Part shown: piece after piece, positions 10,569 to 47,100 of the stretch
How the letters are laid out: the number at the start of each line of letters is the position of its first letter
Numbering within the stretch: the first letter of the stretch is position 1
Source of the DNA: a virus
Virus record (IMG/VR): IMGVR_UViG_3300025131_009312
Span: 1-61,871 of that record
Length of the DNA: 61,871 bases
Direction: 5' to 3' (one strand)
Position numbers and translations under genes: made by a program
Notes under the pieces: generated by a model
What the model saw: only the letters and a program-made list of their open reading frames with translations
What the model was told of the DNA's origin: nothing
Databases searched by the model: none

Positions 10569-11432
10569 GTGATTCTAGTAACTGGGGCAGCAGGGTTTAT
10601 AGGGGGGTGTTTGGTCGACACTCTTTCTCCCCACGATGTATTACTTTGTGACGTTCGAGACGATTCCATGTTGAGTCCAGATGCGGCCTTAGGGGCCATT
10701 GGCGACGATGCAGTAACTTGTGTGTATCACCTCGGCGCCATCTCATCTACTACCGTCACCGACATCACTGCTATGACGGAGAATAATATTTTATTCCCAG
10801 CTCGCTTATTGCAAGTTGCCATGCATAAGGATATACCCTTTGTCTATGCCTCCTCGGCCTCAGTTTATGGAAGTGTTGAGGGTCCACATAAAGAATCTCA
10901 GCCAGCACGCCCGGTTAACTATTACGCGATTAGTAAAACTGCCTTTGACATGTTCGCGCAGGAGAAGATTAAAGATAATCCTGGAGCACGTATCGTAGGT
11001 CTGCGCTATTTTAATGTCTATGGACATAAAGAACACCGCAAGGATGATATGGCCAGCCCTGTTCACAAGTTTATCCATCAGGCCCGGACAACGGGCGAGA
11101 TTAAGGTATTCACCGGGAGCGAAGCCTACCAGCGAGATTTTATACATGTTGAGGATGTGGTGGATATTACTTTGGCAGCCAGCAAGTTCGGCCCGGAAGC
11201 CTCCGGGATTTATAATGTGGGGACAGGGGTAGCCCGCTCATTTCGCGATGTAGCGGATATTATCGCCTCCAACTGTGGGGCCGAAGTAGTGGAAATTCCT
11301 TTTCCAGAGCACCTACAAGGAAAATACCAGAATCATACCCAAAGTGACAACAGCAATCTGGAGAATGCCGGGTATACTGCCCCTCGAATTACGCTAGAAG
11401 ATGGTATCCAAAAGGTACTCACCGCAATATGA
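10569..11432 (+). CDS. hldD: ADP-heptose 6-epimerase-like SDR (HldD/RfaD-like)
   Basis: GTG start at 10569. The 287-residue protein is an extended SDR with 'VTGAAGFIGG' for NAD(P) binding, 'YHLGAISSTT' (an HldD-typical stretch), and the catalytic Y-x-x-x-K in 'NYYAISKTAFDMF'. It also has 'GLRYFNVYGHKEHRKDDMAS', which is characteristic of ADP-L-glycero-D-manno-heptose 6-epimerases. HldD converts ADP-D,D-heptose to ADP-L,D-heptose, an LPS core precursor. It overlaps the next gene, a heptose-phosphate adenylyltransferase, by ATGA, so pathway neighbours are adjacent. The exact substrate in the phage is unproven. Confidence 0.85.
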   Translation: MILVTGAAGFIGGCLVDTLSPHDVLLCDVRDDSMLSPDAALGAIGDDAVTCVYHLGAISSTTVTDITAMTENNILFPARLLQVAMHKDIPFVYASSASVYGSVEGPHKESQPARPVNYYAISKTAFDMFAQEKIKDNPGARIVGLRYFNVYGHKEHRKDDMASPVHKFIHQARTTGEIKVFTGSEAYQRDFIHVEDVVDITLAASKFGPEASGIYNVGTGVARSFRDVADIIASNCGAEVVEIPFPEHLQGKYQNHTQSDNSNLENAGYTAPRITLEDGIQKVLTAI

Positions 11433-11827
11433 CAGTCGTATTTGTTAATGGGTGTTTTGACGTCTTACATCGCGGTCACTTAGAATTGTTTGATTATGCA
11501 CAAAGTCTTGGTGATCATTTAATAGTCGCCATTGATGCGGACGAGAAGGTGCACCGCGACAAAGGCGCCGGCCGCCCTGTAAATGATTTAAAGGATAGAA
11601 AGTATTTTCTTTCATGTTTGGAGAGTGTGGATGAGGTTTTAGATTTTTCATCCGCTCAGGAGCTTGAAGACTTAATAAAGAGCCTTACACCGGATATAAT
11701 GGTGGTAGGTTCTGATTGGCGTGGGAAAACCATCGTGGGATCGCAATACGCCCAAGAAGTGAAATTTTTTGAGAGAATAGATGGATACTCAACTACAAAA
11801 ATCATTCAATATTCTAGTCATCGGTGA
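11429..11827 (+). CDS. hldE: HldE C-terminal-type cytidylyltransferase-fold adenylyltransferase
   Basis: The 132-residue protein starts 'VVFVNGCFDVLHRGHLEL', with the nucleotidyltransferase H14-x-G-H17 motif, and has the end motif 'RIDGYSTTKII' (family I-S-S-T-x-I). It matches the C-terminal half of HldE/RfaE, which transfers AMP to heptose-1-phosphate, and is a stand-alone enzyme here. In bacterial HldE the kinase domain comes first; here the order is reversed and the kinase is the next gene, overlapping by 47 bases in another frame. ADP-heptose is the expected product, but other sugar-phosphate or glycerol-phosphate substrates exist in this fold. Confidence 0.85.
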   Translation: MTVVFVNGCFDVLHRGHLELFDYAQSLGDHLIVAIDADEKVHRDKGAGRPVNDLKDRKYFLSCLESVDEVLDFSSAQELEDLIKSLTPDIMVVGSDWRGKTIVGSQYAQEVKFFERIDGYSTTKIIQYSSHR

Positions 11828-12575
11828 CGCGTGTATAGACAAGTATTCCTATGGTTTCTGTGAGCGCCTCAGCCCAGAAGCTCCGGTTCCGGTCTTGCGT
11901 CATTCGCATACCGAAGAGCGCGAGGGGATGTGCTTGAACGTGAGAAACAACCTCACGGCCTTCGGCGCAACTACGACCGTGAGGCACAATAAGTCTCTTT
12001 TGTCTAAAGAGAGATTTGTGGACCTTAAGACTAGACAACATATACTTCGTTTTGATATGGGCGAAGGGGGCATCACGGACTCTCCTTCACCAATGACTCT
12101 GGCGGCCATTAAAAAACTTAATATAAGCTCTTATAACGCAGTAGTTATCTCTGACTACAACAAGGGGTTTATCACACACGAAAATGGGGCAGTCATCGCA
12201 GAACTGTGTTCACTGGGAGAAGTCCCACTCTTTGTGGACTCAAAAAAGAAGGATCTGAGCTGCTTTTCTAAAGCCTACATTAAGATAAACCAGCAAGAGC
12301 ACAATTTAGTTCAAAAATTGCCTCTTCAATACGAACTGGTGGTTACTCTGGGCGCTAAAGGTGCCCGATGGCAAGGACAAACATACGAGACGCATCCTTG
12401 TGAGGTTTTCGATGTTTCCGGCGCCGGCGATACTTTTTTGGCTGCCATGGTGGCTGAATTTTTAAAAACGAGATCGCTGCCCAAAGCAATTGCTTTTGCG
12501 AATAATTGTGCGAGTATTGCCGTGCAGAAGTTCGGAACTTACGTAATACAGAAGGAAGATATAGATGGAGATTAA
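11781..12575 (+). CDS. hldE: PfkB-type heptose kinase (HldE N-terminal-like)
   Basis: The 264-residue protein begins with 'ILVIGDACIDKYSYG' and 'RLSPEAPVPV', the RfaE1/HldE kinase signature. It ends with the PfkB motif 'DVSGAGDTF', in which D217 is the catalytic base. It is about 50 residues shorter than typical HldE kinase domains, and the sugar-binding glycine pair (usually G-G-A-A-N-V-A) reads 'GMCLNVRNNL', a notable change. It should phosphorylate heptose-7-phosphate at C1 if functional. It starts within the adenylyltransferase gene (47-base overlap) and its end overlaps the cupin gene by 11 bases. Confidence 0.82.
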   Translation: MDTQLQKSFNILVIGDACIDKYSYGFCERLSPEAPVPVLRHSHTEEREGMCLNVRNNLTAFGATTTVRHNKSLLSKERFVDLKTRQHILRFDMGEGGITDSPSPMTLAAIKKLNISSYNAVVISDYNKGFITHENGAVIAELCSLGEVPLFVDSKKKDLSCFSKAYIKINQQEHNLVQKLPLQYELVVTLGAKGARWQGQTYETHPCEVFDVSGAGDTFLAAMVAEFLKTRSLPKAIAFANNCASIAVQKFGTYVIQKEDIDGD

Positions 12576-15053: not shown

Positions 15054-15578
15054 ATGATAAAGTTAGTAGTTTTAGATATTGATGGGGTCATGACCGATGG
15101 AAGCAAGACTTATGGAATAGACGGATCGGTGGTGGCTAAGAGATATAATGATAAGGACTTTACTGCTATCAAGCGCCTCCGGGCCGGCGGCACCCCTGTG
15201 TGTTTTTTATCTGGAGACAATCGCATCAACGAAAAGATGGCCCAAAATCGCAATATTGATTTTTATTATGCGCGCGGGATTGATAAGGCTTCATTTGTAC
15301 CTGTTTTTGCTGATAAATATGGAGCCACTGCCTCCGAAATGTTGTATATCGGAGACGATTTATTTGACATTAGCATGTTGCGCGTAGTGGGGCACCCTTA
15401 TTGTACGGCCGACTCACCCAACGTTGTAAAAAAGGAGTGCGGGCCGATGGGTGTCGTCCCCCGTAAGGGGGGAGAAAACGTGGTCGCTGCACTCTATGAT
15501 ATTTTATTGGATAAAAACTTAGTAGAAGATGCTACAATGGAGGCAATCGAAGCCTTCGATAAAAAAGAGAGATTTTAG
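15054..15578 (+). CDS. kdsC: KdsC-like HAD phosphatase
   Basis: The 174-residue protein has the HAD motif I 'VLDIDGVMTDGSKTY' (DxDGVxTDG, specific to the KdsC/CMP-NeuNAc-phosphatase subfamily), motif II at 'FLSGDN' where KdsC has I-T/S-G-R, and motif IV 'YIGDDLFDISML'. KdsC removes the 8-phosphate of KDO-8-phosphate; relatives act on nonulosonate phosphates. No KdsA-like synthase or CMP-sugar synthetase is seen in the window, so it may serve another sugar phosphate. A GGAG site lies in front of ATG 15054. Confidence 0.85.
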   Translation: MIKLVVLDIDGVMTDGSKTYGIDGSVVAKRYNDKDFTAIKRLRAGGTPVCFLSGDNRINEKMAQNRNIDFYYARGIDKASFVPVFADKYGATASEMLYIGDDLFDISMLRVVGHPYCTADSPNVVKKECGPMGVVPRKGGENVVAALYDILLDKNLVEDATMEAIEAFDKKERF

Positions 15579-15591
15579 GAGAGAAATAAGT

Positions 15592-16290
15592 ATGAAATAT
15601 GACAAAAGTCTGTTAACCGACAAGCATGGGTGCTACGAGGGAATTCACAAAAACCTATATTCAGCAAATCCCCAAAAGCCCTTTCAGAAGGTCCACATGT
15701 CCGCGGAGGATGTAAAGATTATTAACCGTCGTTTTATGGGGGCGGGCATGTCTCAAAGCTATGCAGCCATCTATTGGTTTGAGTATTATTACGAAGCACA
15801 TCGCTTTGATTATGTAGTTGAGATAGGGAGCCAAAAGGGCGCCCTGAGCACATATTTCGCCAATATGGCGGCCATCACCGAAGCTTTTTATTTTGACACT
15901 TTTGAATTATATCCGGAAACTAGTTGGTATCAAAGACAACATGAAGGGGTAGGTCACTGGTTTGCAAAGCTTTGCGACATCTCTCCCCACATTAACTTTC
16001 ATTTCGGCGATATTTTCTCTGCCGACTCCCAACAGCACATTCAAGAGAATATGGAACAGTTGGATAAAACTTTCATCTTTTGTGACGGCGGAAACAAGAT
16101 AAAGGAATTTGCCATGTTTGCCCCTCTGTTGAAGTCCGGTGATCGAATAGCAGTCCATGATTGGAATCTCGAAATTGCTTATCCTCACATTCGCGGAGTC
16201 TGCGAACAATACGGGCTAGTTCCCGACGAGCCCTATGCCACTTCGGCCATGACTTTGGAAACCACCATTATGCCATTTAGGAAGCAATGA
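15592..16290 (+). CDS. SAM methyltransferase-like protein
   Basis: The start is ATG 15592, preceded by AGGAGAG; the in-frame TTG at 15529 lies in the previous gene. The 232-residue protein has motif I 'YVVEIGSQKGALSTYF', a strand 'FYFDTFEL', and 'TFIFCDGGNKIKEF' followed by 'LKSGDRIAVHDW', the layout of cephalosporin-hydroxylase or Methyltransf_24-like enzymes. Its target is probably a sugar. It sits between the HAD phosphatase and a PfkB kinase, inside the second sugar-activation group. Confidence 0.68.
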   Translation: MKYDKSLLTDKHGCYEGIHKNLYSANPQKPFQKVHMSAEDVKIINRRFMGAGMSQSYAAIYWFEYYYEAHRFDYVVEIGSQKGALSTYFANMAAITEAFYFDTFELYPETSWYQRQHEGVGHWFAKLCDISPHINFHFGDIFSADSQQHIQENMEQLDKTFIFCDGGNKIKEFAMFAPLLKSGDRIAVHDWNLEIAYPHIRGVCEQYGLVPDEPYATSAMTLETTIMPFRKQ

Positions 16291-16300
16291 TTTCCACCCC

Positions 16301-16969
16301 ATGCATGATGTAAGCTTATATGGGCACCTAACTTTCGACCGACTCTTTGTAAATGATAAAAAGGATGCTACCGTCGGGTCCATGGGCAATGTATGGAAAC
16401 ACCTGAACCGAATTAATCCTACTCTGGGGATTAATTTAGAGCCCACCTCTGTGGGAGAAGCCCTAATCATGATTGATACAAATAAGTGTGAGCGAGCATC
16501 GATTGCAAACTTAAATCTGCAACAACGAGCGCCCCTTGTGGAGCCATCACGCTGGAGTCATATTTTATATCTTAATGAACTCCCGGACACTTCTTTCATC
16601 TCGGAGATCACCACCGGAGTTATATCGGCCGATATTTGCCGGGGTAGGACACTAAGCGATCTAAGTATTTTAAAATATATAGATTTTCTATTCATCTCTG
16701 ATGAAGATCTATTTATGGAAGTTTCCGATCTACAACAATATGTGAAGGGGACTATAATATTACATTATAAAAGCGGCAGTCTTTGCTATACTAAGGGTGC
16801 AGATAGAGTAAAAACAACCACACCAGTAATCGAAGATGTTAACGTGTTAGGGTGTGGCGATATGTTCGCTGCAGCATTCATTAATGCATACATGATGCAT
16901 TCTAGTATAGAAAGCGCCGTCGCCTTTGCTCATGAAAGCGTTAGTCAACACTTGAGAGGTATAGAATGA
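16301..16969 (+). CDS. Second PfkB-family sugar kinase (short)
   Basis: The 222-residue protein has 'LYGHLTFDRLFVND' (PfkB N-terminal strand), 'GSMGNVWKHL' in place of the sugar-binding G-G-x-x-x-N, and 'LGCGDMFAAAF' in place of 'T-G-A-G-D-x-F'. It keeps the catalytic base D187 and the anion hole but has Cys185 where Ala is usual. It is far shorter than ordinary PfkB kinases (about 300). The start ATG 16301 has no clear ribosome-binding site, but no earlier start exists in frame. It overlaps the next gene by ATGA, so a kinase and a nucleotidyltransferase-isomerase are coupled. Confidence 0.75.
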   Translation: MHDVSLYGHLTFDRLFVNDKKDATVGSMGNVWKHLNRINPTLGINLEPTSVGEALIMIDTNKCERASIANLNLQQRAPLVEPSRWSHILYLNELPDTSFISEITTGVISADICRGRTLSDLSILKYIDFLFISDEDLFMEVSDLQQYVKGTIILHYKSGSLCYTKGADRVKTTTPVIEDVNVLGCGDMFAAAFINAYMMHSSIESAVAFAHESVSQHLRGIE

Positions 16970-18126
16970 AAAAATATAATTTGCTGATTCCCATGGCAGG
17001 CCGCGGCCAGAGATTTGTCGATGCCGGTTATAAGGTGCCCAAGCAGTTTATCCATGTTGGCGCCGTGCAGCTCCTGGATATTTCATTAAACTGTTTTGAT
17101 CTAGAACAGTGTAATCTGATCTTTGTAGTCCGCGACGATCAAATAAGTAACTACAATGTTGATCAAATTTTGAGGTATAAGTACGGAGACGATATCACCA
17201 TCGTAGTAACAGACGGGATGACAGAGGGTTCTACCTGCAGCTGTCTTTTGGCTCAGGACCACATTGATAACGATGCTCCTCTTTTTATTCATACGTTGGA
17301 TATTGAATTTGGCCCCCGGGTTAACCCAGCCGAACTCGTAGAAACCGATAGCGATGGTATTTTATTAACATTTAAATCTAATTCTTCCAACTATAGTTAC
17401 GTTGAACTAGGAGAGAACCAACAGGTAACCAAGACAGCCGAAAAGAAGGTGATCAGTGATAAAGCTTGTGTAGGAATTTACTACTTCAAGTCCGGCTCGG
17501 TGTTTTGCGCCAATGCCCGCGAAATGATATCGCGGAATTTAAGAACCAACAATGAGTTTTATATTACTCCGCTCTACAACCTATTGGTAGAGAAGGACCT
17601 TAAGGTGACAACCAAAGAGGTCTCCAAAATGCATATTTTCGGTACCCCCAAGGAGTTCGAGTTCTATAAGAACAATGTCGTCAAGCGATTCGGAACAAAA
17701 CCAGTTGCGCTGTGCTCAGATCATTCTGGGTTCGAGGCCAAAGAGAAGTTCAAGAAAACGCTGCAACAGCAGGGAATCGACTTTATCGACTTCGGCACCC
17801 ACGTAAAACAAGATTCTGACTATAAATATTTTATCGAACAAGCCGTAGGATCCAAAAATGATGGTACGTGCGACTTTATTTTAGGCTTTTGCCGCACGGG
17901 CCAAGGAGTTAATATGTGCGCCAACAAGTTCGAGGGCGTGAGATCAGCATTAATCTACGATGAGATGTCAGCAGAGATGGCAATTCGTCATAACTGTGCC
18001 AACTTTTTTGCTCTCCCTGGTCGCCACTGTGAGTCAGATGAATATGTGCACCGTATCGTACAGCTGCTCAAGGACCACACCTTTGATGGTGGTCGCCACC
18101 AGATGAGAATTCAGGAGTTAGAATAA
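16966..18126 (+). CDS. Nucleotidyltransferase fused to RpiB/LacAB-type isomerase
   Basis: The 386-residue protein has two domains. Residues 1-235 are a sugar-phosphate nucleotidyltransferase: 'LLIPMAGRGQRF' with 'GYKVPKQFI' (G-x-G-x-R and P-K), 'GSTCSCLLAQ', and 'NDAPLFIHTLD'. Residues 245-386 are an RpiB/LacA/LacB sugar-phosphate isomerase: 'CSDHSGFEAK', 'FCRTGQGVNMCANK' with the conserved active-site Cys309, 'GVRSAL', and the terminal 'GGRHQMRI'. The fusion would make an isomerised sugar phosphate and then activate a sugar-1-phosphate; a kinase/phosphatase step between them is likely supplied by neighbours. One open frame, no frameshift. The stop overlaps the next ATG (TAATG). Confidence 0.85.
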   Translation: MKKYNLLIPMAGRGQRFVDAGYKVPKQFIHVGAVQLLDISLNCFDLEQCNLIFVVRDDQISNYNVDQILRYKYGDDITIVVTDGMTEGSTCSCLLAQDHIDNDAPLFIHTLDIEFGPRVNPAELVETDSDGILLTFKSNSSNYSYVELGENQQVTKTAEKKVISDKACVGIYYFKSGSVFCANAREMISRNLRTNNEFYITPLYNLLVEKDLKVTTKEVSKMHIFGTPKEFEFYKNNVVKRFGTKPVALCSDHSGFEAKEKFKKTLQQQGIDFIDFGTHVKQDSDYKYFIEQAVGSKNDGTCDFILGFCRTGQGVNMCANKFEGVRSALIYDEMSAEMAIRHNCANFFALPGRHCESDEYVHRIVQLLKDHTFDGGRHQMRIQELE

Positions 18127-18467
18127 TGAAAACTTATAATATAAACGATATGGTAAAGGGGTGGTTCATTGGAGACTTTGAACCTTCAGTGTTCAAGAAT
18201 CCTTTTTTCGAAGTCGCCCATCATCAACATGAAGCCGGTTATGTCACCCCCCGCCATACTCACAAAATAGCCCAGGAGCTTACCTATATTGTGCGCGGGG
18301 CTCTGCTGGTGGACGGTCAACGACTTTCCGCCGGTGACATGTTTGTTTATGAGCCCAACGATGTGGCCAACGTAAGCGTTTTGGAAGATATTGATGTAAT
18401 AGTGGTAAAGTGGCCGTCGGTCCCATCCGATAAGTATATGGTGGAAGATGATACACATAGCACATAG
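18126..18467 (+). CDS. Second cupin-domain protein
   Basis: The 113-residue protein is a single cupin with 'RHTHKIAQELTYIVRGALLV' (motif 1: H-x-H-x(4)-E-x(6)-G) and 'LSAGDMFVYEPND' (motif 2). It is coupled to the fusion gene by TAATG and is overlapped by the next gene for 20 bases. It is different in sequence from the cupin at 12565. A role as sugar isomerase/epimerase or sugar sensor is possible, but the substrate cannot be read. Confidence 0.8.
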   Translation: MKTYNINDMVKGWFIGDFEPSVFKNPFFEVAHHQHEAGYVTPRHTHKIAQELTYIVRGALLVDGQRLSAGDMFVYEPNDVANVSVLEDIDVIVVKWPSVPSDKYMVEDDTHST

Positions 18468-18897
18468 AGGTAATTTGGAGGGCCCTAACCCTGGCAAAGA
18501 GAATCACCCAGACTATGTGACAGAGGCCATGACGAAGGGCTATAACGTGGAGGTGGACGTATGGTACGAAAACGATACGTGGCACCTCGGCCATGACCGC
18601 CCTACCTATGAAATAAAAAAAGACTTTTTTTACAATAATCTATTATGGTGTCATGCAAAAAATTTAGAGGCCCTTCATCAATTAGCCGTTTTAGGGGTGC
18701 ACTACTTTTGGCACGAAAGCGACGCAGTGTCAGTTACCTCGCGTGGCTATTTTTGGACCTACCCAGGCAACGAACTTACGACCAAGTCTATTGCCGTTAT
18801 GCCAGAGGTAGCTAGTTCCCCCACCATGCGCCTTTGTGCTGGCATATGCTCAGATTATATCGCGCTTTATGCGCGAGGAGAGATTGAATACAAATGA
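18448..18897 (+). CDS. Mini glycerophosphodiester phosphodiesterase-like protein
   Basis: The 149-residue protein retains the N-terminal GDPD catalytic set: H6-R7-G8 ('IAHRG'), E18-N19, E35-x-D37 ('NVEVDVWY') and H49-D50 ('LGHD'). Most GDPD enzymes are 240 residues or more, so the C-terminal half of the TIM barrel is short or altered; 'LWCHAKNLEAL' could be the 'N-x-E-x-K' position. Related mini forms occur in surface-glycan clusters. It overlaps its neighbours on both sides (20 and 4 bases). Confidence 0.68.
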   Translation: MIHIAHRGNLEGPNPGKENHPDYVTEAMTKGYNVEVDVWYENDTWHLGHDRPTYEIKKDFFYNNLLWCHAKNLEALHQLAVLGVHYFWHESDAVSVTSRGYFWTYPGNELTTKSIAVMPEVASSPTMRLCAGICSDYIALYARGEIEYK

Positions 18898-19781
18898 AAA
18901 AGATTAAAATAGCCCTTTGCTACTCCGGCGCGGTCCGGGGCCTCATCAACAATTTACCTCAGGTAAGAAAAGTTTTATTTAGCGACCCCGAAGTTGAGTA
19001 CGATGTAGATTATTATCTGTATGCCGACCCTAAGGGTGCATCCATTCGCGCTGAAGATATACAGCTTGGAGACCAAGAGCCCCAAGGACTAAAGGTGCAG
19101 CAAGAATTAGATTATTTTAAGTGCCTGTTCGAAGATGAGACGGGGGAGGATCACAATCAGCGTATGACTGAATTTGGGACGCGAATTAGGAATTATCATA
19201 TGCCCTATAAGGAGCAAGTGTTGCAGTGGTACGCTGTTAAGCGAGTTTTTGATTTCGTTTTCGACCAAGAAGAAACATATGATGTATATGTTAGATTACG
19301 TTGTGATATATTTCCGGCCGGCCGCCTAAAGTTTGATTGGAATCAATTTGATCAAAATACGGTGTATGTCCCTTTCAACTGTCCTTTCGGCGGGATCAAC
19401 GATAGATTCGCTTTTGGGAGCGCATCGACCATGAGAAAATATGCTAATTTTTATGGGACCGATATTTATTATGACGGAGATGACGTTGGCCCAGAGGTTA
19501 AGGCACGCGCCCAGGCCTGGTATGGCCGCAATTACGCTCATATCCCTACGGACAATTATGGCGGCGGCTCAAACAACTCGGAATATCGCATGCTTAATCA
19601 CTTATTGAGCGAGGGGCTTAACATTGAGCTTCTCCAAGGCCCTCCCGATGGTACAATTATCTGCTCCCCCCGTAACGCAGCCGGCATCATCCGTTACCCG
19701 GGCCCAGATTTAGAGGAGATGCTTCTGCGCCATGAAGATGCGACTCTGGATGAACTAAAATATGACAGGAAGTGGTGGTAA
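18894..19781 (+). CDS. Putative glycosyltransferase with R-x-D motif
   Basis: The 295-residue protein opens with 'IKIALCYSGAVRGLI', a first strand seen in a group of phage and bacterial glycan-cluster transferases. It has 'YDVYVRLRCDIFPAG', an R-x-R-x-D arrangement like that of WavE-type enzymes, followed by 'NDRFAFGSASTMRKY', which looks like an acceptor-side loop ('D-x-x-x-x-G'). It is linked to the upstream gene by ATGA and to the NadE gene by a TAATG overlap. The family call is by motif likeness only. Confidence 0.62.
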   Translation: MKKIKIALCYSGAVRGLINNLPQVRKVLFSDPEVEYDVDYYLYADPKGASIRAEDIQLGDQEPQGLKVQQELDYFKCLFEDETGEDHNQRMTEFGTRIRNYHMPYKEQVLQWYAVKRVFDFVFDQEETYDVYVRLRCDIFPAGRLKFDWNQFDQNTVYVPFNCPFGGINDRFAFGSASTMRKYANFYGTDIYYDGDDVGPEVKARAQAWYGRNYAHIPTDNYGGGSNNSEYRMLNHLLSEGLNIELLQGPPDGTIICSPRNAAGIIRYPGPDLEEMLLRHEDATLDELKYDRKWW

Positions 19782-20563
19782 TGAACAATAAGCTTTCGGA
19801 ATCTATATCCAATTGGCTTCTCGACTACTTGGATGCATCTGGTCTTTCCACTTTTATAGTGGGGATCTCCGGAGGTGTCGACTCAGCAGTTGTCTCAACT
19901 TTATGTGCCAACACGGGCCGCCCAGTAATCGTTCTAAACATTCCTATCCATTCGAAAGATAACAATACGGACCTCTCCCAAGCGCATTGCGACTGGCTTG
20001 TAGAGAACTATAAAAACGTAAGAGCAGAAACTGTAGATCTTACACCTGCTTACGATGCGTATGCCTCAACTGTTCTGTCTCATATAAACAAGAATGATTT
20101 AGCATTCGCCAATTCCAAATCGCGGTTGCGTATGGTTCTACTATATCAGTATGCCACCACGTTTCATGGCCTGGTGGTGGGGACCGGCAATAAAGTTGAA
20201 GATTTTGGAGTTGGGTTTTATACTAAATATGGTGATGGAGGAGTCGATCTAAGCCCGATCGCCGATCTGACTAAAACCGATGTCCGCGCGCTAGCCGAGA
20301 TTCTGAGAGTATCACAGGATATTTTAGATGCCCCTCCGACGGATGGGCTGTGGGAAGATAGTCGTACCGACGAGGCGCAAATCGGTGCCTCTTATGAAGA
20401 ATTAGAATGGGCTATGGCCTATATAGACAACGGCCTCGACGATGCTCTTACCGGCCGACAGGGCGAAGTATTAGATATTTTTCTGGGTTTTCGCAAGAAT
20501 AATTCCCACAAGATGCGTCCTATTCCCGTCTATCAATTAAAGGGTCCACAAAATGTTGATTGA
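19781..20563 (+). CDS. nadE: NH3-dependent NAD+ synthetase
   Basis: I choose ATG 19781 (TAATG overlap, AGGA upstream) over the GTG at 19772. The 260-residue protein has the PP-loop 'SGGVDSA' near residue 30 and 'GTGNKVEDFGVGFYTKYGDG', which binds deamido-NAD in NadE. It also has 'LSPIADLTKTDVRALA' and 'PPTDGLW', both NadE hallmarks. It has no glutaminase domain, so ammonia is the nitrogen donor. It makes NAD+ from deamido-NAD, ATP and NH3. It sits among sugar genes, several of which (UDP-glucose dehydrogenase, epimerases) use NAD; whether this explains its place is inference. Confidence 0.9.
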   Translation: MNNKLSESISNWLLDYLDASGLSTFIVGISGGVDSAVVSTLCANTGRPVIVLNIPIHSKDNNTDLSQAHCDWLVENYKNVRAETVDLTPAYDAYASTVLSHINKNDLAFANSKSRLRMVLLYQYATTFHGLVVGTGNKVEDFGVGFYTKYGDGGVDLSPIADLTKTDVRALAEILRVSQDILDAPPTDGLWEDSRTDEAQIGASYEELEWAMAYIDNGLDDALTGRQGEVLDIFLGFRKNNSHKMRPIPVYQLKGPQNVD

Positions 20564-38120: not shown

Positions 38121-41100
38121 ATGAGCTTTAAAACGTTATTCGATAAAGCTACGGCGGTCACCGCCTTAGCAAATAAGAATTCTAAACAGATCGGCGGAGA
38201 AGTTGAATCTCGTCAGTATCATACACAGGATATTATTCACGAAAAGCGGTTTATTCCTCGGATTGATTACTCTGATCCTAAGAATTTTGCTAGGTATGGT
38301 TCCGCAGAAGAGTATTATGCTCAATCGATTGGGAGAATCCTAGACAATTATCCTTATGACGGCTCACTTAAGGAAAGAATACAGTGGGAGAATGAGTCCA
38401 CATATGTAGACCTGCACATTCTCGATAATCTGTATCCCCGTACCAACGGCTTTATTCACCTATCTCAGGGCGGCTGGGGAACCGCGGCTTCGATTTCGAG
38501 TGACGGCTATGGCCTTCCCAATACTCTAGAATATATCTATCTAGAGGGCGGCCCTCACGGAAACCCAACCGGCCCGACTCCCTATGCTCAACAGTTTACT
38601 GGATCTAACTATTATGATCCTGATACCAACCGCGAGAGCAATTTAAAGTTCGACCTCCAAAATCAAGGCGCCACTATAGAGTTTTGGTTAAAGAAGGATG
38701 CCTGGGCTTCTTCTCTTACCACTAACGAAGTCTTGTTTGATATGGAGGCCAGCAATACTGGCACTGAGCAGAATCGCTTCCGGGTGGCTCTTAATTCGAC
38801 CAGCTCATCGCCGTTCTACATCACTGCGTTATCAGGCGGAGTTGGAATTACTGACGAAGCATTGGGTTCCTCTGTAACCATAGCAGATGGTTTATGGCAT
38901 CACTATGCGGTCACCTTAAAATCAGTCGCTGCTGGTATTCAAACAAAACTGTATATTGACGGGGGCCTGAACGTATCCTCGGTGCTCGGGTCTACTGGAA
39001 TTAACGAAGTGACAGGAGCGCTAGTGGCTACCGTTGGTTCCCTCGTTGCAGCAACGGCTGCCGGCGGAGCACAGTACGCAGGAAAACTCTCGGGATCTTT
39101 AGATGAATTGCGTTACTGGAAGACGCGTCGAACCGGTGAAAAGATCGGCCGCTATTGGTTTGACCAGGTGGGCGGCGGCACCAACACCGATCCGCAGGCC
39201 TTTACCGACACACAAGAAGAGGTAAACACAACCCTTGGTGTTTACTACAAATTTAACGAAGGCATCACCGGCGATACAAGTATCGATAGCACTGTGCTCG
39301 ACTACTCTGGCCGGGTTTCTAATGGAACCTGGACGGGGTATACAACCGAGTCCCGAGCCACCGGATCAGCCATTGTTATTTCCAAAGCAGCCATAAAAGA
39401 ATTCAAAGACCCCATCATTTACGGACAACACCCTGATGTCATAATGCTCCAGAGTAGTTTGCAGGTCACCGGCTCGAATCATGATACTGAAAATGCAGCC
39501 ATGGTTTACAAGAGTATTCCCGGCTGGATCACAGAAGATGACGAGGAAACCACCGGAAACCTCAAGAAACTTACTCAGATTATGGGCAGCTACTTTGACA
39601 CTCTCCAATTGCAGACTGAATCACTCAATCTGTTAAAAGATGTGGAGTATGTTTCTGGGAGTAATAAGCCTATACCGTTTGCAGATCGGCTTCTTAATTC
39701 TCACGGCCTAGTTGCACCCGAAATCTTTTTGGATGCAGATATTTTGGAGAAGTTGGCAGATCGCAGTGAAGACAAGCTCTACGAAAAGACTCTTAATGAT
39801 TTAAAGAACATTATTTATCAAAATATCTACAATAACCTGACCTATATTTATAAGTCTAAGGGAACTGAAAAGTCTTTTAGAAACCTTATTCGTTGTTTCG
39901 GCATTGATGATGAGTTGATAAAACTAAAATTATATGCGAAAAATACCCAGTATGAATTTAGGGAAAACCGGCGAACCCTCATACTCCCGACCAAGTATGT
40001 TAATTTTAATGCGACCAATGCTACCGAAGCCACTGTATTCGGCTTTAAAGATCCGTCGGGCAGCTACGAGAACACCACAGGCTATTTGACTTCTAGTGTT
40101 GAACTGACCGGAGGCTTTGCATACACGTTCGAAACAGATGTGTTTTTTCCTGAGAAAAAGGACATAACCAACCCTACATACGCGGATACCAATACGCTTT
40201 CTGCTTCGTTGTTTGGTATTCATGGCACTATAGGATCTGAGACCGATACTGCGTGGCCCGAAGTTGCGGGCTCTGTGGTTGACGACAAAGTTAATTTCCA
40301 GGTGTATGCGTGCCGTGATGAGTTAGACTCTAAAAATGTTAAGTTTGTATTAACCGGCACCCAAGGTGGTGTAGTTCCTCTTATGGAAAGCTCCTTATAT
40401 GAGGACACCTATTCAGATGTAACATGGAACTTATCAGTTCGGGTTAAACCAGAGCGATATCCATTGGCTGCCTTTTCGACAGGGGCTGACACTGGCGCTT
40501 ATACGATCGAATTGCACGGAATTAAAGTTCAAGCCGGAGAAATAACGGATAGTTTTAATATTTCTGATACCATTAGCGCAGCATCCAACCCCGACGGTGG
40601 ATTCATGACAGGCAGTAAGCGCCCCTATGTGGGAGCGCATCGTACCAACTTCACTGGTACTATACTCCAGCCTACCGATGTTAGAATTGAAGCCTCGCGA
40701 TTCTGGGTGAATTATGTTGAAGACGAAGCACTCCGCGCGCACGCCTTAGATTCCGAGAACCATGGTGCGTTTCAGCCACACCAATATGCATACCCATTTG
40801 CTAGTGATGGTCATTATGGAGACGTTGTTGAGTTTGATACCCTGGCCTTTAATTGGGAGTTCAGCCAAAATACGGGCTCGAACGCTTTAGGTCAGATGGT
40901 GGTGGCAGATGAATCTTCGGGTTCCAATGTTACAACGGCGTATCAGGGCCTAGGAGAACTACTCAACAAACAGTATACCGCCCTAGGGTATGGATTCCCT
41001 CAGTCTTCGACCGAGCCAATTGTTAAGGACTTTGTCGTTATCTCACGCCTAAATGACGTTGAGACCATCGGCCCCGCCGAAACTATTAATGTCTTAAGCG

Positions 41101-44100
41101 CCCAAGATCAGCACGTTTTCAAGATCGACTCGCGCCCTATTAATTATTATTTCTCTTTTGAAAAAAGTATGTATAACACCATCAGTGAAGAAATGGTCAA
41201 TTATTTTGGAACATTAAAAGATTTTAATACTCTTGTTGGTGCCCCAGTCAATCGCTATCGTCCTGATTATAAACAACTGGCCTTTTTAAAGCAAAAGTTT
41301 TTTGAGAACGTTGCCAATGATGAGATAGACTTTGATAAGTTTTATGAGTTATACAAATGGTTTGACTCTACCCTGTCATTCCTGTTAGGCCAGCTCGTCC
41401 CGGCCTCCGCCGATTTTGCGGATAATATTCGAACCATGGTGGAAAGCCACGCTTTGGAGAGAAACAAGTATAATAATATTTTGCCCTTTGTCGACAAGGA
41501 AAACACGGTTTTTGAAGCAACTATGTCGAGCAGTGTAGACTACGGTGATGCTATTTCATCCCCGGACGATGAGCCCCAAGGAACCGGGTTTTATCCTGCG
41601 CATGCCCCTACCAAGCGCGCAACTGGGTTGTCGAACCGCGGTATGGTTAAAAAGTGGAAATATGTACACGCCCCGGTTTCCGACGACCCGACTGAAAAAT
41701 ATCTCTGGTGGAAGAACAAGGCAGAGCGTAACACACCAACCATTGATGTCCCAGCCGGTGTACTTACCAGTAGGGCCCAAATTTTGCGATCTATTAGGAT
41801 GGCAGACCAACGCGAAGAAGGAAAGCCTTACCGATTTAACGTTGCCGGTTCATACGACCTACAGGGTGTGGGTACAGGTTATAACTTTAAGCCCTATATG
41901 CTATATCCGTCGATTGCTCCATTTGGTGGAAACGCAGCAGGCACAAATGCCCCAAGAGATATAGCCTTTATTAGTGGAAGTACAGTGGAGACGCTCCTGA
42001 ATACCACGGACGAGTTTTACCCAACATACAAGCAGCGCCTAGGCTTCGCTGTTGATCTAGACAAGAATAAAAATGATAGCATCGCGGACCCCGAACCTGG
42101 AGGTCACATCGCTCCGTTTAGTCTTTATAACGCTACACTGACCAACACTCCATCATCTTTCCGACCCAATACCGCCATTACTAATTTGCATCACGATTAC
42201 GTCGCTGACAATTCTATTCCAGCCCAAGGGCCGTTTACGGAGAAATATGTCGGAGGTCGCCGATTCAGGCACGTAGAACTTAATACCGGAACAGATACTG
42301 CTTTAACTCGACCAGAAGGTTTCAAGTTACAGTTCTCTGAGGTCTCTTCCTCGGCCGGAGGCAAGTTTTCTGGTTCACTGGCAATCTTGCCCCCTAATTC
42401 TACGGGCTTGATCACCCGTGCCGAAATCCCCACAGCGCAACGATTAAGAGATGAGACCGCAAAGCGCCCTGTAAACATCAAGAACATCTTTATGACGACG
42501 GCTTCTGCCGGAGAGCGCCTGAGCAATATTGCCACACATGGTAAAATAGGAAATTACCAGAAGAACTATCAAGTTATTCAAACATCGGGCCGCTCACAGA
42601 ACGATCCATACTTTGTCGAGCAGTCTTTTAACTTTGCCCTCAACCCCCAGAATCCTTACCCAAGAAGTACATTTAATAATCGTTTCCCTCTGCAGAACCC
42701 TTTGAGCGCCACCCAAGCCTCGGGCGAAACTCTTCGGGTTGCAAATACGAAGGCCATTGTACTCTGGGACGGCCCTAACATACACTATCAGTTTACAGCC
42801 CCAGCCGGCCTGAATTCAAATGAGGCTGAAACTATCGCTTTCTGGGTGAAGGCAGACTCCTCCGACCTAGGCGGCTACATCATTTACAATGCTGATGGTG
42901 GTACTCGAAGACTTGTCACCATCGAGGCCACGGGCCAAGTTGCTTTCTTGGTCGGCCTCGCCAGTGGCAACCACACTTGGATCACTAACGACTCAGCTAC
43001 AGCCGGCGACGAATGGATACATATAGCAATTTCTTATGATGCATCCTCGGATGCGACAACGCCGAACATCTATGTTAATGGTACCGCTGTGGCTATATAC
43101 GAATCCGGCACACCCGGTTCAGGCGATCCTGATGACTGGAGTAGCACTGTTTTAGTTGGTAACACTACCAGCGTAAACTTTCAGGGTTATATTTCGGACA
43201 TGGCTTTTTGGAATACTGCGCTAGACGCCCCAACGATTGCAAGCCTCTATGCGCGCTCAACTGCTAATTTGATTAACGCTTCATGGGTTGCATCCCCCCT
43301 CATGTGGTACCGCTGCGGTAATGGTGCTACGGACACCGCCGCCACCATTGTGGATCAAATGGGCACCGCCAATTTGACGTCAACCTCGGGTCTCAAGGAA
43401 ATTGTTGATATACCTCCCGGAAGTTGTCTTGGAACGTCCCTAGATAATTTTGCACTCCCTAATCGCGACGGCATAAATTCAAATCAGACGGTTTTTGTAA
43501 ACCACTTTAGCGCGCCCGGGGGTTACAAGACCCTTTCCCGTGGTTATCTCGACCCAGCCCACGAAGAACTTTCAGTCTATAATGCGCTTCCTTATCGAAA
43601 CCGAGGCGTGATTGATTACGGCTTATCTGGCTCCGCGTCGGCTGATCCCTCTATTGCTCAAGCAGAGCATGTTGTCGGTCAGCTTCTTCGCACGCGCGGC
43701 CTTAACCAGCGCGCTTCACTTCATTGCGGACAGTATGGCATCGATGCGGCTTATGGATCCATAACTGCGCAGAGCACTCGTGTCGACGGTGGCACGGGAT
43801 ATTCGTCTACTCCTTCGTGGCACAAGACCAATCGGAACACATTACGGCGAATGGAGTCCGGCTCCACAGGGTATGCTGCAGCTTCCACCTATGACAACTT
43901 GTATGTACAGCACCAGATCCCTCAGTCGGCACAGCAATATGCGTGGATCACCGCGTCTCTCGCACCCGGAGAATCCATCATGGTCCTCCAGCCGCCTACG
44001 TGTATCTCTGCTTCTTCCTTAACCCAACTCCTGACCGCGAGCGCTGTAGGTTATAGTCGGTACTGGTCATATAATTCTGCTCTGATGTATGGGGCCACAG

Positions 44101-47100
44101 GCCGCGGCGGATTTAATGCAAGTTCACAAGGACTTCAGTTCCTCCCAGTAGATTTTCTCGGCCTGTCAACTATTGTTGTCGACCCTGTGAGTGCCTCTAC
44201 TCATACGCTTGGGTACTCTCTAGATCTTCCGCTCTACACTAAACTAACTACTTACTACGCCAAGTCAGACTATATTAATCCTTCTACCATGCCGCCCCAG
44301 GCTTTCGCGGCGGGCGGCAATATAATTACCAACCTCGCCAATGGTGCCCCAGGCCATGCAAGTATTTTAAACTCTATTCTGCTTAACCGTAACGGACCAT
44401 ACGGATATCCTACGTGGAAGCAGATTCGTACTGGCGAAACGCGTACTGCGCGTGCGCTCCGTCGCCAAAATAAAATAGGCACAGTTAAAGTTCCCCCCCT
44501 CGTAAAAAATGTAGTAGCGTCCACCGGCGTAGAACTAGGGTTTGTGAGAGCCAAACAACCTGTTGGTTTTGTTGACTTTGTGGAACAGCCTTTAAGTAGT
44601 CGTTATTCGCCTATCTTCGTGGCCACAGAGGATAACACAGCGAACTCAAACGTTAGAAATAACATTCAACTTAATGTTGCTTATGGAAATCGATTTGACA
44701 ATTTCTCTAACGAGGGACTCAACAATCTGCTGAATATCCCGCCACCGGACATCTACAACAACCCGTTTACCAATATCGCTGACTCCATTGTGCGTAGCCA
44801 GTTGAGTACTATGATGATTTATTCCGAAAGAATTTATCCGGCTGAAATAAATGCATACAAAAATATAGTTCGCAACAGAACCACATTTACCATCTCAAAT
44901 GTTTGGAACGCCGATAGAGGAGTCCGCAGCGCCACGCAGACTCGATCCAACTCCCAAGGAGATATAGTTGACTACCAGAGTATATGGGCTTTAGACCCGC
45001 AATTAAATTTCTCAACAGTGGCCCCTGCTTTAAGCAATATAACGGACGGATCCGGTGAACTGCAAAATATGTATAATCGTTTCGGGGTTCAGTCTACGGG
45101 CTATACTGATGGCTCGATAACAGCCAGCGCTATATATGCATCCCGGGTCCCTGTGGGCTATAGCGAAGGTGCTACATCAAGCGCGAATCTGGTTTATGGA
45201 GGTGCTGCATCTTTTGTCACTCCGATGGACGCCGACAAGATGCCATATGAGCGCTATGAGGATTGGGTCCAGCATCTGCGCCTGATCGGCAAGGATTATT
45301 CTATAGTTCCGGAATTCCGCCTGAGTGAGTTGATGGAGACTTATCTCGAAACTTATGATGGCAATTTCTTGGCTGAAGTTACGGGCGCCTTAACATTAAC
45401 GGGATCCTCGGCCGAAATTTCCAATAACCAAGAGCAGTTTTACAAGACTTATACTAATGCAGATTTCATGAAGTATTTTGAGGTGGTGGATAATATGCTG
45501 GACAACCAGCGCTCTGGCGACTTAAAAATACAGAGAGAGAAGTTGGCCCTGAGATGCACAGCCTTGTTGAAGTTTTTGCCTTATAAGGGCTTCTATCCTT
45601 CAGAACGTATTATGGAGTTGGCTAGCCTTTTCTCCAGCTCGTATGGCGATAATTTTGAAACCATCGCCGCGGCAGCCGATGGGTCTACAACCACCAATCC
45701 TACAACCTATAGAGCTATTGTGGAGCCACTTTTTGCACCAGGAATCTGGTTTAACAGTGTAAAATCTGGAGTGGGTGTGGGAAGTTGGGTCACTGTCAAT
45801 ACCGCGCCAGACAGCGTGTCATCTCAAGATGACATTAGCAGATCCGGCCAGCAGAAGGATGCTGGTATTACTGTTTTACCGGAGGGGTCTGTATGCTATG
45901 GTCAAGGCAGTCTGTTCTCAGCATCACTTTCTCGTAACGCCAATACCTATCATTTAGAGCGCGTCCCCTTTGAGGCCTCATATCGACCTGAGGAATTCCT
46001 CAGTCAAAAGTCTGTGACGGGTTCCTATATTTGGGATAGTGGGATGGGGACTGCCAGCCTCGCCTTTAATAATGGAAATAAATATACCAAGAATAGGGTA
46101 AAATGGAACGGCGCCGGCAAGGATCTCTATCGTTTAGCGGCCGATAACTTTTTATGTGAAACGACAAACTTTTTCATGGATGACATGGTAAGTTTTATCT
46201 CCAGCCCAGAAAACCAGTTTTCCGAAAAAACTCAAGAAGGGGAGGTTTTCGCCCTAACTCTTAATTTCAATCGGCCGATGACTCGACAGCTTGGAATTAC
46301 TGCCGGCGGCGACCCCGATCGAACCCGTTTTGAGTTGTATAATCGAGCCTCGGCCTTCGGGTCGCCATTTATTTTGGATGAGGGTTATCCGATGACCACC
46401 ACAGGTGAGACAGCCTCTGGCTCAATTGAACTTACCAGTAGCCTTGTTTCATCGGGCATCCAGGCCCAGGGTTATATTGAGTTAACCGGTGCGATGGTTG
46501 GCGGAGTAGCTGCTTCGGGTAATATTAAGGTGGATTCCTGGGCCGACAATATTACTGGCCAGGGCATCCGCTTATATAACGCCGAGGGCACTGAATACTA
46601 TACTTACACCTTTAGTTCAACCAGTCCCACTAGTGCGGATACAATAAATACCACCAACTCAAATTCCGACCAGCTCAAGGAAATCCAATTGGCCGTTGAA
46701 CTATCCGCTTGGGATGGGACAACCCGGATCAACACAGTTGACATTACCGTGCTCGAATTGACTCAGAGCGCCACGGGCACAGCCGGCAACACCGCTATTG
46801 GCGAAGATGGGGGCGGTTTAAGCTCAACTGACTTCATCAATGGCGCCAACGCCACAGGGTGGTCCATTACCACCGGCGACAGGTGGACAATTAGCGATGG
46901 TGGCACCAACTCCTACAACTACCTACAGCCCGGTACCGTCCGTACAGCAACGTTCGCAGCCACTAGCTCGGGAGACCCATGCGCTTATGATGGATGTTTC
47001 GAAATTGTTAACACGGGGGATGCAAACGCTGACATTTTGGCCACCATACAGAGTTTCTACGACACAGTTAATACATACCAAGCCGCCAACCCAGACTATA

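Follow-up and report, generated by a model that had tools for sequence, protein, structure and literature searches.

A viral fusion of a sugar nucleotidyltransferase with an RpiB-type isomerase recurs within a conserved gene cassette

Analysis of a 61,871-nucleotide stretch of viral DNA (IMG/VR record IMGVR_UViG_3300025131_009312; the whole stretch is hereafter the window) identified a gene whose product joins a sugar nucleotidyltransferase (NT) to an RpiB/LacAB-type isomerase. The presence of the same fusion with the same neighbours in dozens of aquatic viruses, and its absence from the bacterial genomes searched, points to an activated-sugar pathway that is virus-owned. The protein is probably a virus-specific bifunctional enzyme of the first and last steps of NDP-sugar synthesis, with a neighbouring kinase and HAD phosphatase acting between them. 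The features concerned are as follows.

15054..15578, + strand: KdsC-like HAD phosphatase (Pfam Hydrolase_3; TIGR01670 71 bits, cut-off 107)
15529..16290, + strand: methyltransferase-like gene between the HAD and the kinase (Methyltransf_24, weak)
16301..16969, + strand: short PfkB/ribokinase-family kinase, 222 amino acids (PF00294 28.8 bits, cut-off 25.8)
16966..17670, + strand: sugar NT domain, RmlA/GlmU-like fold, residues 1-235 of the fusion; closest solved relative 4evw
17701..18123, + strand: RpiB/LacAB isomerase domain, residues 246-386 of the fusion; full-length PF02502
18126..18467, + strand: small cupin (Cupin_2/Cupin_7, weak; phrog_24762, E 2e-43)
18448..18897, + strand: GDPD-like small protein (phrog_34507, E 9e-24; HRGN...ENHP and EVDVW...HD motifs)

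Architecture of the fusion protein

The fusion is encoded by a single open reading frame (ORF) at 16966-18126 on the plus strand, which runs for 386 codons from ATG to stop without an internal stop and specifies 386 amino acids. Each half matched its own family: NTP_transferase (Pfam PF00483) at residues 11-182 (E 1.1e-5; 25.6 bits, cut-off 21.2) and LacAB_rpiB (PF02502) at residues 247-385 (E 4e-33; 114.7 bits against 24.7), the latter over profile positions 1-138 of 138. Sequence searches of the Protein Data Bank returned 4evw as the best solved relative of the NT (phmmer; residues 6-232, E 1e-16) and 1o1x as that of the isomerase (residues 246-385, E 2.5e-24). An alignment of 24 representatives revealed the NT motifs GxGxRF, PKQ, D112, E159-K160 and GTP to be nearly invariant, and Cys309 and the DHSG motif (residues 252-255) to be invariant. 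The AlphaFold model of the fusion (24 sequences) comprises two confident folds (mean pLDDT 90, pTM 0.84), of which the NT half was matched by Foldseek to 4evw_A (E 1.1e-17, TMt 0.83) and the RpiB half to 1o1x, the RpiB of T. maritima (TMt 0.89, rmsd 1.8). The initial annotation had placed an NT (residues 1-235) and a complete-looking RpiB-type isomerase with Cys309 and a CSDHSG motif in one frame; the ORF, the Pfam matches and the conserved residues agree with this, as does the structure prediction, a check it had proposed.

The PF00483 score above cut-off, the GxGxR and PK motifs, the catalytic Asp and the fold match assign the N-terminal half to the RmlA/GlmU type, and 4evw, a nucleoside-diphosphate-sugar pyrophosphorylase of V. 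cholerae, is closest to it in both fold and sequence. Among the named NT equivalogs, RmlA, GlmU, HddC, IspD and KdsB were all either far below their curated NCBIfam cut-offs or absent.

The loci examined contained 87 intact single-frame fusion ORFs, 55 of them non-redundant at 98% identity, and all 87 are open through the domain junction. With both domains in one frame in 87 ORFs, a split or frameshifted gene was ruled out. The linker is nearly constant in length in the 24 representatives (...FGTPxEFxFYKxNVxKxxGxKPIALCSDHSG...). Median dN/dS values (Nei-Gojobori) were 0.073 for the NT (177 pairs) and 0.091 for the RpiB domain (157 pairs), indicating that both halves are under purifying selection. 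The fusion was thereby confirmed as a genuine two-domain protein, far above chance. As each half forms a complete fold in its own right, internal initiation or cleavage might be imagined to yield two separate proteins, but this is exceedingly improbable: in the window copy, Met is missing from residues 223-316, M222 lying inside the NT and M317 deep in the isomerase, so that no ATG start (the only start codon considered) occurs near the domain boundary, and in the 87 ORFs the short linker is both conserved and uninterrupted.

The cassette and its distribution

The genes are ordered KdsC-like HAD, short PfkB kinase, NT-RpiB, cupin and GDPD-like gene. The kinase that the initial annotation had noted just upstream proved to be of the PfkB type and overlaps the fusion by 4 bases; the first base of the cupin gene is also the final base of the stop codon of the fusion, and from the kinase through to the GDPD-like gene successive window genes share 1 to 20 bases. 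At non-redundant loci with enough flanking sequence, the kinase was present in 45/45, the HAD in 44/45, the cupin in 49/49 and the GDPD-like gene in 45/49, where entries scored by the script as 'elsewhere', mostly ORF start extensions, were taken as present. At one locus (L003) the kinase is kept but relocated downstream of the fusion. The methyltransferase-like gene, found in the window and a few relatives only, is probably not a core member of the cassette.

Membership of the kinase in the PfkB family follows from its PF00294 score above cut-off and a G-x-GD motif (G184, G186, D187); D13, G26 and N30, together with these three residues, are invariant. Its AlphaFold model, for which one row from an annotated phage record was left out of the input, has a pLDDT of 91 and is ribokinase-like (best PDB match by Foldseek 3h49, E 6e-13). 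The HAD was matched best by KdsC and KDN-9-phosphate phosphatase models, all below their cut-offs, and not by GmhB. The GDPD-like gene gave no Pfam match and was named from its motifs alone. The surrounding cluster in the window is rich in epimerases, glycosyltransferases and methyltransferases. It also holds an NAD-synthetase-like protein (19772-20563; SGGVDSA motif, GTGNK), seen in L003 and L069 as well. Elsewhere in the window, positions 11429-12575 encode an HldE-like nucleotidyltransferase and an HldE-like kinase as separate overlapping genes in reversed order, with an adjoining epimerase and no SIS-type GmhA noticed in the surroundings, and a single ORF of 3668 amino acids occupies 38121-49127 in the tail region.

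A tblastn search of phage records yielded three full-length matches of ~59% identity, two in records of Synechococcus phage Bellamy and one in SynMITS9220M01; in both phages the gene is annotated 'phosphatase'. In IMG/VR, 102 stretches encode relatives, and near-whole coverage of the query was seen in all of the matches listed (80). PHROG 3980 ('unknown function') matches the SynMITS9220M01 fusion end to end (E 7e-120); the family thus already lies inside this PHROG, which groups the fusion together with NT proteins of tandem or extended form, such as Bellamy gene 209 (L007:14223-15797) and that of S-SKS1 (L115:3998-5425). The S-SKS1 label '3,4-dihydroxy-2-butanone 4-phosphate synthase' is unsupported, the protein being of the NT family and not a Ru5P enzyme. 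Three other candidates were rejected: 'Listeria' phage NT-plus-RpiB matches (137-386) are stand-alone RpiB following triosephosphate isomerase, that of a 'Staphylococcus' phage corresponds to LacA plus LacB, and a phage from human faeces supplied just a stand-alone RpiB. The fusion, which the initial annotation had called unusual in a phage, is not the oddity of a single one but a recurring viral family, with 87 ORFs, at least two sequenced cyanophages and PHROG 3980; NT-RpiB apparently constitutes a viral enzyme architecture undescribed so far. The baseplate wedge protein of the window shares no more than ~32% identity with phage records, and its nearest listed counterparts belong to a Microcystis phage and to Flavobacterium phages; movement of the cassette among distant viruses is therefore probable.

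A pattern-based scan of 84,980 bacterial and archaeal species genomes, of a kind that can miss diverged fusions, detected one full fusion, on a contig (PACT01000001.1; L088) binned as a Crocinitomicaceae MAG. This contig appears viral, as it shares both its size (15998) and its viral cassette order with IMG/VR contig 2825980227_000005 (L044), and it was rejected as a bacterial example. When 399 Bacillota and 396 Bacteroidota genomes were searched with an HMM, no further fusion emerged; the threshold was reached by stand-alone NTs alone, in open frames of 243-274 amino acids. The whole-protein search for ordinary bacterial fusions, which the initial annotation had recognized as capable of overturning its view, thus returned none that was genuine among the bacterial genomes searched. 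Stand-alone RpiB is common in Bacteroidota (268/297 genomes with a match), and in a small tree of RpiB domains, for which the bacterial sample was mostly Bacteroidota, the viral domains are monophyletic (support 0.88) and adjoin Bacteroidota RpiB of the CGSGQG type. A locus in a Crocinitomicaceae MAG (L102:1495-3414) has an RpiB domain in frame with a large C-terminal, secreted M28-type peptidase-like stretch, reflecting either a fusion or a sequencing error.

Bacterial relatives of the NT (154-224 bits in L124, L125, L126 and L128), like 4evw, are single-domain proteins, and are often accompanied by a HAD of a different type, a GDPD-like gene and a cupin. Within bacterial polysaccharide clusters, a conserved module was observed in which a GDPD-like gene, a HAD, the NT, a cupin and a further NT occur in slightly variable order (L090:5659-8732, L124:8226-11277, L126:7350-10541), L128 (7890-9896) having only the first three; the match to the GDPD-like gene is weak in these modules. 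Neither RpiB nor PfkB was found with the profiles applied beside these stand-alone NTs. Fusion of a related NT (~36-42% identity) takes a second form in the HAD-NT protein encoded in glycan clusters of cyanophages S-CAM9 and B23 and of IMG/VR locus L004. The same GDPD-like gene again follows, immediately or nearly so, but this protein carries an N-terminal HAD instead of a C-terminal RpiB, and the kinase of the NT-RpiB cassette was not found beside it. In other genomes of the cyanophage type, longer NT proteins with the same GDPD-like gene nearby were noted at L004:4347-5729, L133:4347-5720 and L134:5347-6732, the N-terminal HAD having been checked with Pfam for L004 and with NCBIfam for L134. 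Given the bacterial modules without RpiB or PfkB, coupled with the cyanophage HAD-NT fusions, the association of NT, HAD, cupin and GDPD-like gene looks older, and the isomerase and kinase would be the viral addition.

The isomerase active site

The C-terminal half belongs to the RpiB/LacAB superfamily, subfamily TIGR00689 (102.3 against a cut-off of 88.3), and scored below the ribose-5-phosphate isomerase B equivalogs (TIGR01120, 93.8 against 138.65; PRK05571, 104 against 135). In this family, the Cys serves as base and the Thr in proton transfer, the backbone NH groups of Gly70-Gly74 stabilize the intermediate, His102 functions in ring opening, and phosphate is bound by His11, Arg113, Arg137 and Arg141 (PMC4783025, PMC3755991). 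The window copy keeps D252, H253, C309, T311, H342, N343, R377, H378 and R381, and the Asp-His, Cys, His-Asn and GGRHxxR elements are invariant or nearly so in the 24 representatives. The full-length domain, fold and catalytic residues are thus held in common with RpiB/LacAB proteins (PF02502), including 1o1x and the C. thermocellum RpiB 3he8. Unlike these, the fusion has, besides its attached NT, three alterations of the pocket. At the Gly70 position (R310), Arg is present in 24/24, creating a CR[T/S]GQG loop instead of CG[T/S]GxG, whereas 15 sampled stand-alone family members have Gly (14) or Thr (1) and never Arg. The Pro following Asp-Tyr is replaced by Lys or Arg in 21/24 (K287 in the window copy). 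The Arg113-type phosphate ligand (position 353) is not conserved, being Arg in 7/24, the window copy among them, and Lys in 12/24. The combination of a CG[T/S]GxG oxyanion loop with an Arg113-type ligand, by which ribose-5-phosphate isomerase B is recognized, was not found across the 24 representatives.

The active site is therefore non-canonical and, as judged from these residues, the substrate may not be ribose-5-phosphate. In LacAB, Arg113 is replaced by an Arg elsewhere, accompanied by a hexose-phosphate substrate (PMC3755991); this precedent, together with the changed pocket residues, makes an altered substrate plausible. Of the identity suggested by the initial annotation, the RpiB/LacAB fold and catalytic residues stand, while ribulose-5-phosphate as substrate was not established, the pocket differing from that of ordinary RpiB. 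The same changes, namely Gly to Arg at 310 in the active-site loop and the altered residue after Asp-Tyr, could also signify a domain that has lost catalysis and serves the NT as a dimerization or sugar-sensing module. Moreover, D285 is Asn in 5/24 relatives, and at this position D45N inactivated the Leishmania enzyme (PMC4783025). Such a loss is nevertheless quite unlikely, as little or no variation is seen at D252, H253, C309, T/S311, H342, N343, R377 and R381, dN/dS is low, and the window copy has Asp at 285.

Proposed pathway and alternatives

As proposed, the C-terminal RpiB-type domain would isomerize a ketose-phosphate into an aldose-phosphate, the PfkB-type kinase whose gene overlaps that of the fusion would phosphorylate the anomeric carbon, the KdsC-like HAD phosphatase would take off the other phosphate, and the N-terminal NT would combine the sugar-1-phosphate with an NTP, giving an NDP-sugar for the viral glycan cluster. 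The order of steps, the participation of both domains in one pathway, the sugar, the nucleotide and the benefit of fusing both ends are matters that we infer. In heptose activation, the isomerase GmhA has a SIS fold, and the phosphatase GmhB is a HAD of another kind than that of the cassette. The order of steps in that pathway, GmhA, HldE (kinase), GmhB and HldE (NT), provides a precedent, and because its set of isomerase, kinase, phosphatase and NT equals that of the cassette, the fusion is read as supplying the first and last reactions (PMC5387315). The reaction types of GmhA, HldE or HddA (1-kinase), GmhB and HldE or HddC are shared with the cassette, but HldE fuses kinase with NT whereas the viral protein fuses isomerase with NT (PMC5387315). 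With an isomerase of RpiB fold and a HAD matching KdsC-like and other HAD models instead of GmhB, the cassette lacks the isomerase and phosphatase types that mark the ADP/GDP-heptose pathway; Bellamy and SynMITS9220M01 each hold a separate gene annotated phosphoheptose isomerase.

The near-invariant cassette, the kept catalytic residues, the confident folds, the low dN/dS and the retention of the kinase in L003 would be best explained by this pathway. Against it stand the HAD, which matches KdsC and KDN-phosphatase models below their cut-offs and not GmhB, the altered isomerase pocket, and the consideration that a shared neighbourhood is no proof of a shared substrate. Bacterial modules combining a related NT with a cupin and another type of HAD, but showing no RpiB or PfkB match, indicate that the NT is able to function when no isomerase accompanies it. 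The suggestion of the initial annotation that a single protein performs both the first and the last activation step of one sugar is retained as the best reading, and one that we infer; the near-invariant presence of the HAD and kinase alongside the fusion strengthens it.

The two domains might instead have unrelated jobs, with RpiB supplying ribose-5-phosphate for nucleotide synthesis during infection, the NT activating another compound, and the fusion being a convenience of co-expression. RpiB is classically a ribose-5-phosphate isomerase, and cyanophages hold pentose-phosphate genes, SynMITS9220M01 having 6PGDH and G6PDH some 6-9 kb upstream; yet the fusion is tied to kinase, HAD and cupin in glycan clusters and not to nucleotide genes, and its unconserved Arg113-type ligand and new R310 and K/R287 depart from ordinary RpiB, making this rather unlikely. 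In the established Kdo pathway, Ru5P is converted through A5P, Kdo8P and Kdo to CMP-Kdo. A similar logic, in which the isomerase makes an aldose-5-phosphate that condenses with PEP, the KdsC-like HAD dephosphorylates the product and the NT forms a CMP-ulosonate (the KdsB step; PMC12409901), would suit a HAD most like KdsC and KDN-9-phosphate phosphatase. It is very doubtful, however, as the cassette has no synthase (KdsA/NeuB), the window NT is outside the KdsB family (CTP_transf_3 and kdsB unmatched), and the invariant kinase would be left without a role.

The preferred reading thus remains an NDP-sugar pathway beginning and ending with the fusion. A more specific form of it is advanced only tentatively: the virus-owned pathway may be entered through an RpiB-type enzyme that has a rebuilt phosphate pocket, uses a sugar-phosphate other than ribulose-5-phosphate and is physically joined to the last enzyme. 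To our knowledge, no described nucleotide-sugar pathway begins with an RpiB-fold enzyme, and a literature search on RpiB, sugar nucleotide and PfkB found nothing. The 'phosphatase' label on the Bellamy and SynMITS9220M01 genomes is corrected by the present analysis. If the proposed pathway is true, the cassette would be a compact viral module of four activities (isomerase, kinase, phosphatase and NT), two of them in one chain, that turns a ketose-phosphate of central metabolism into an activated sugar, and its recurrence across aquatic phage contigs would offer a handle on the products of cyanophage glycan clusters.
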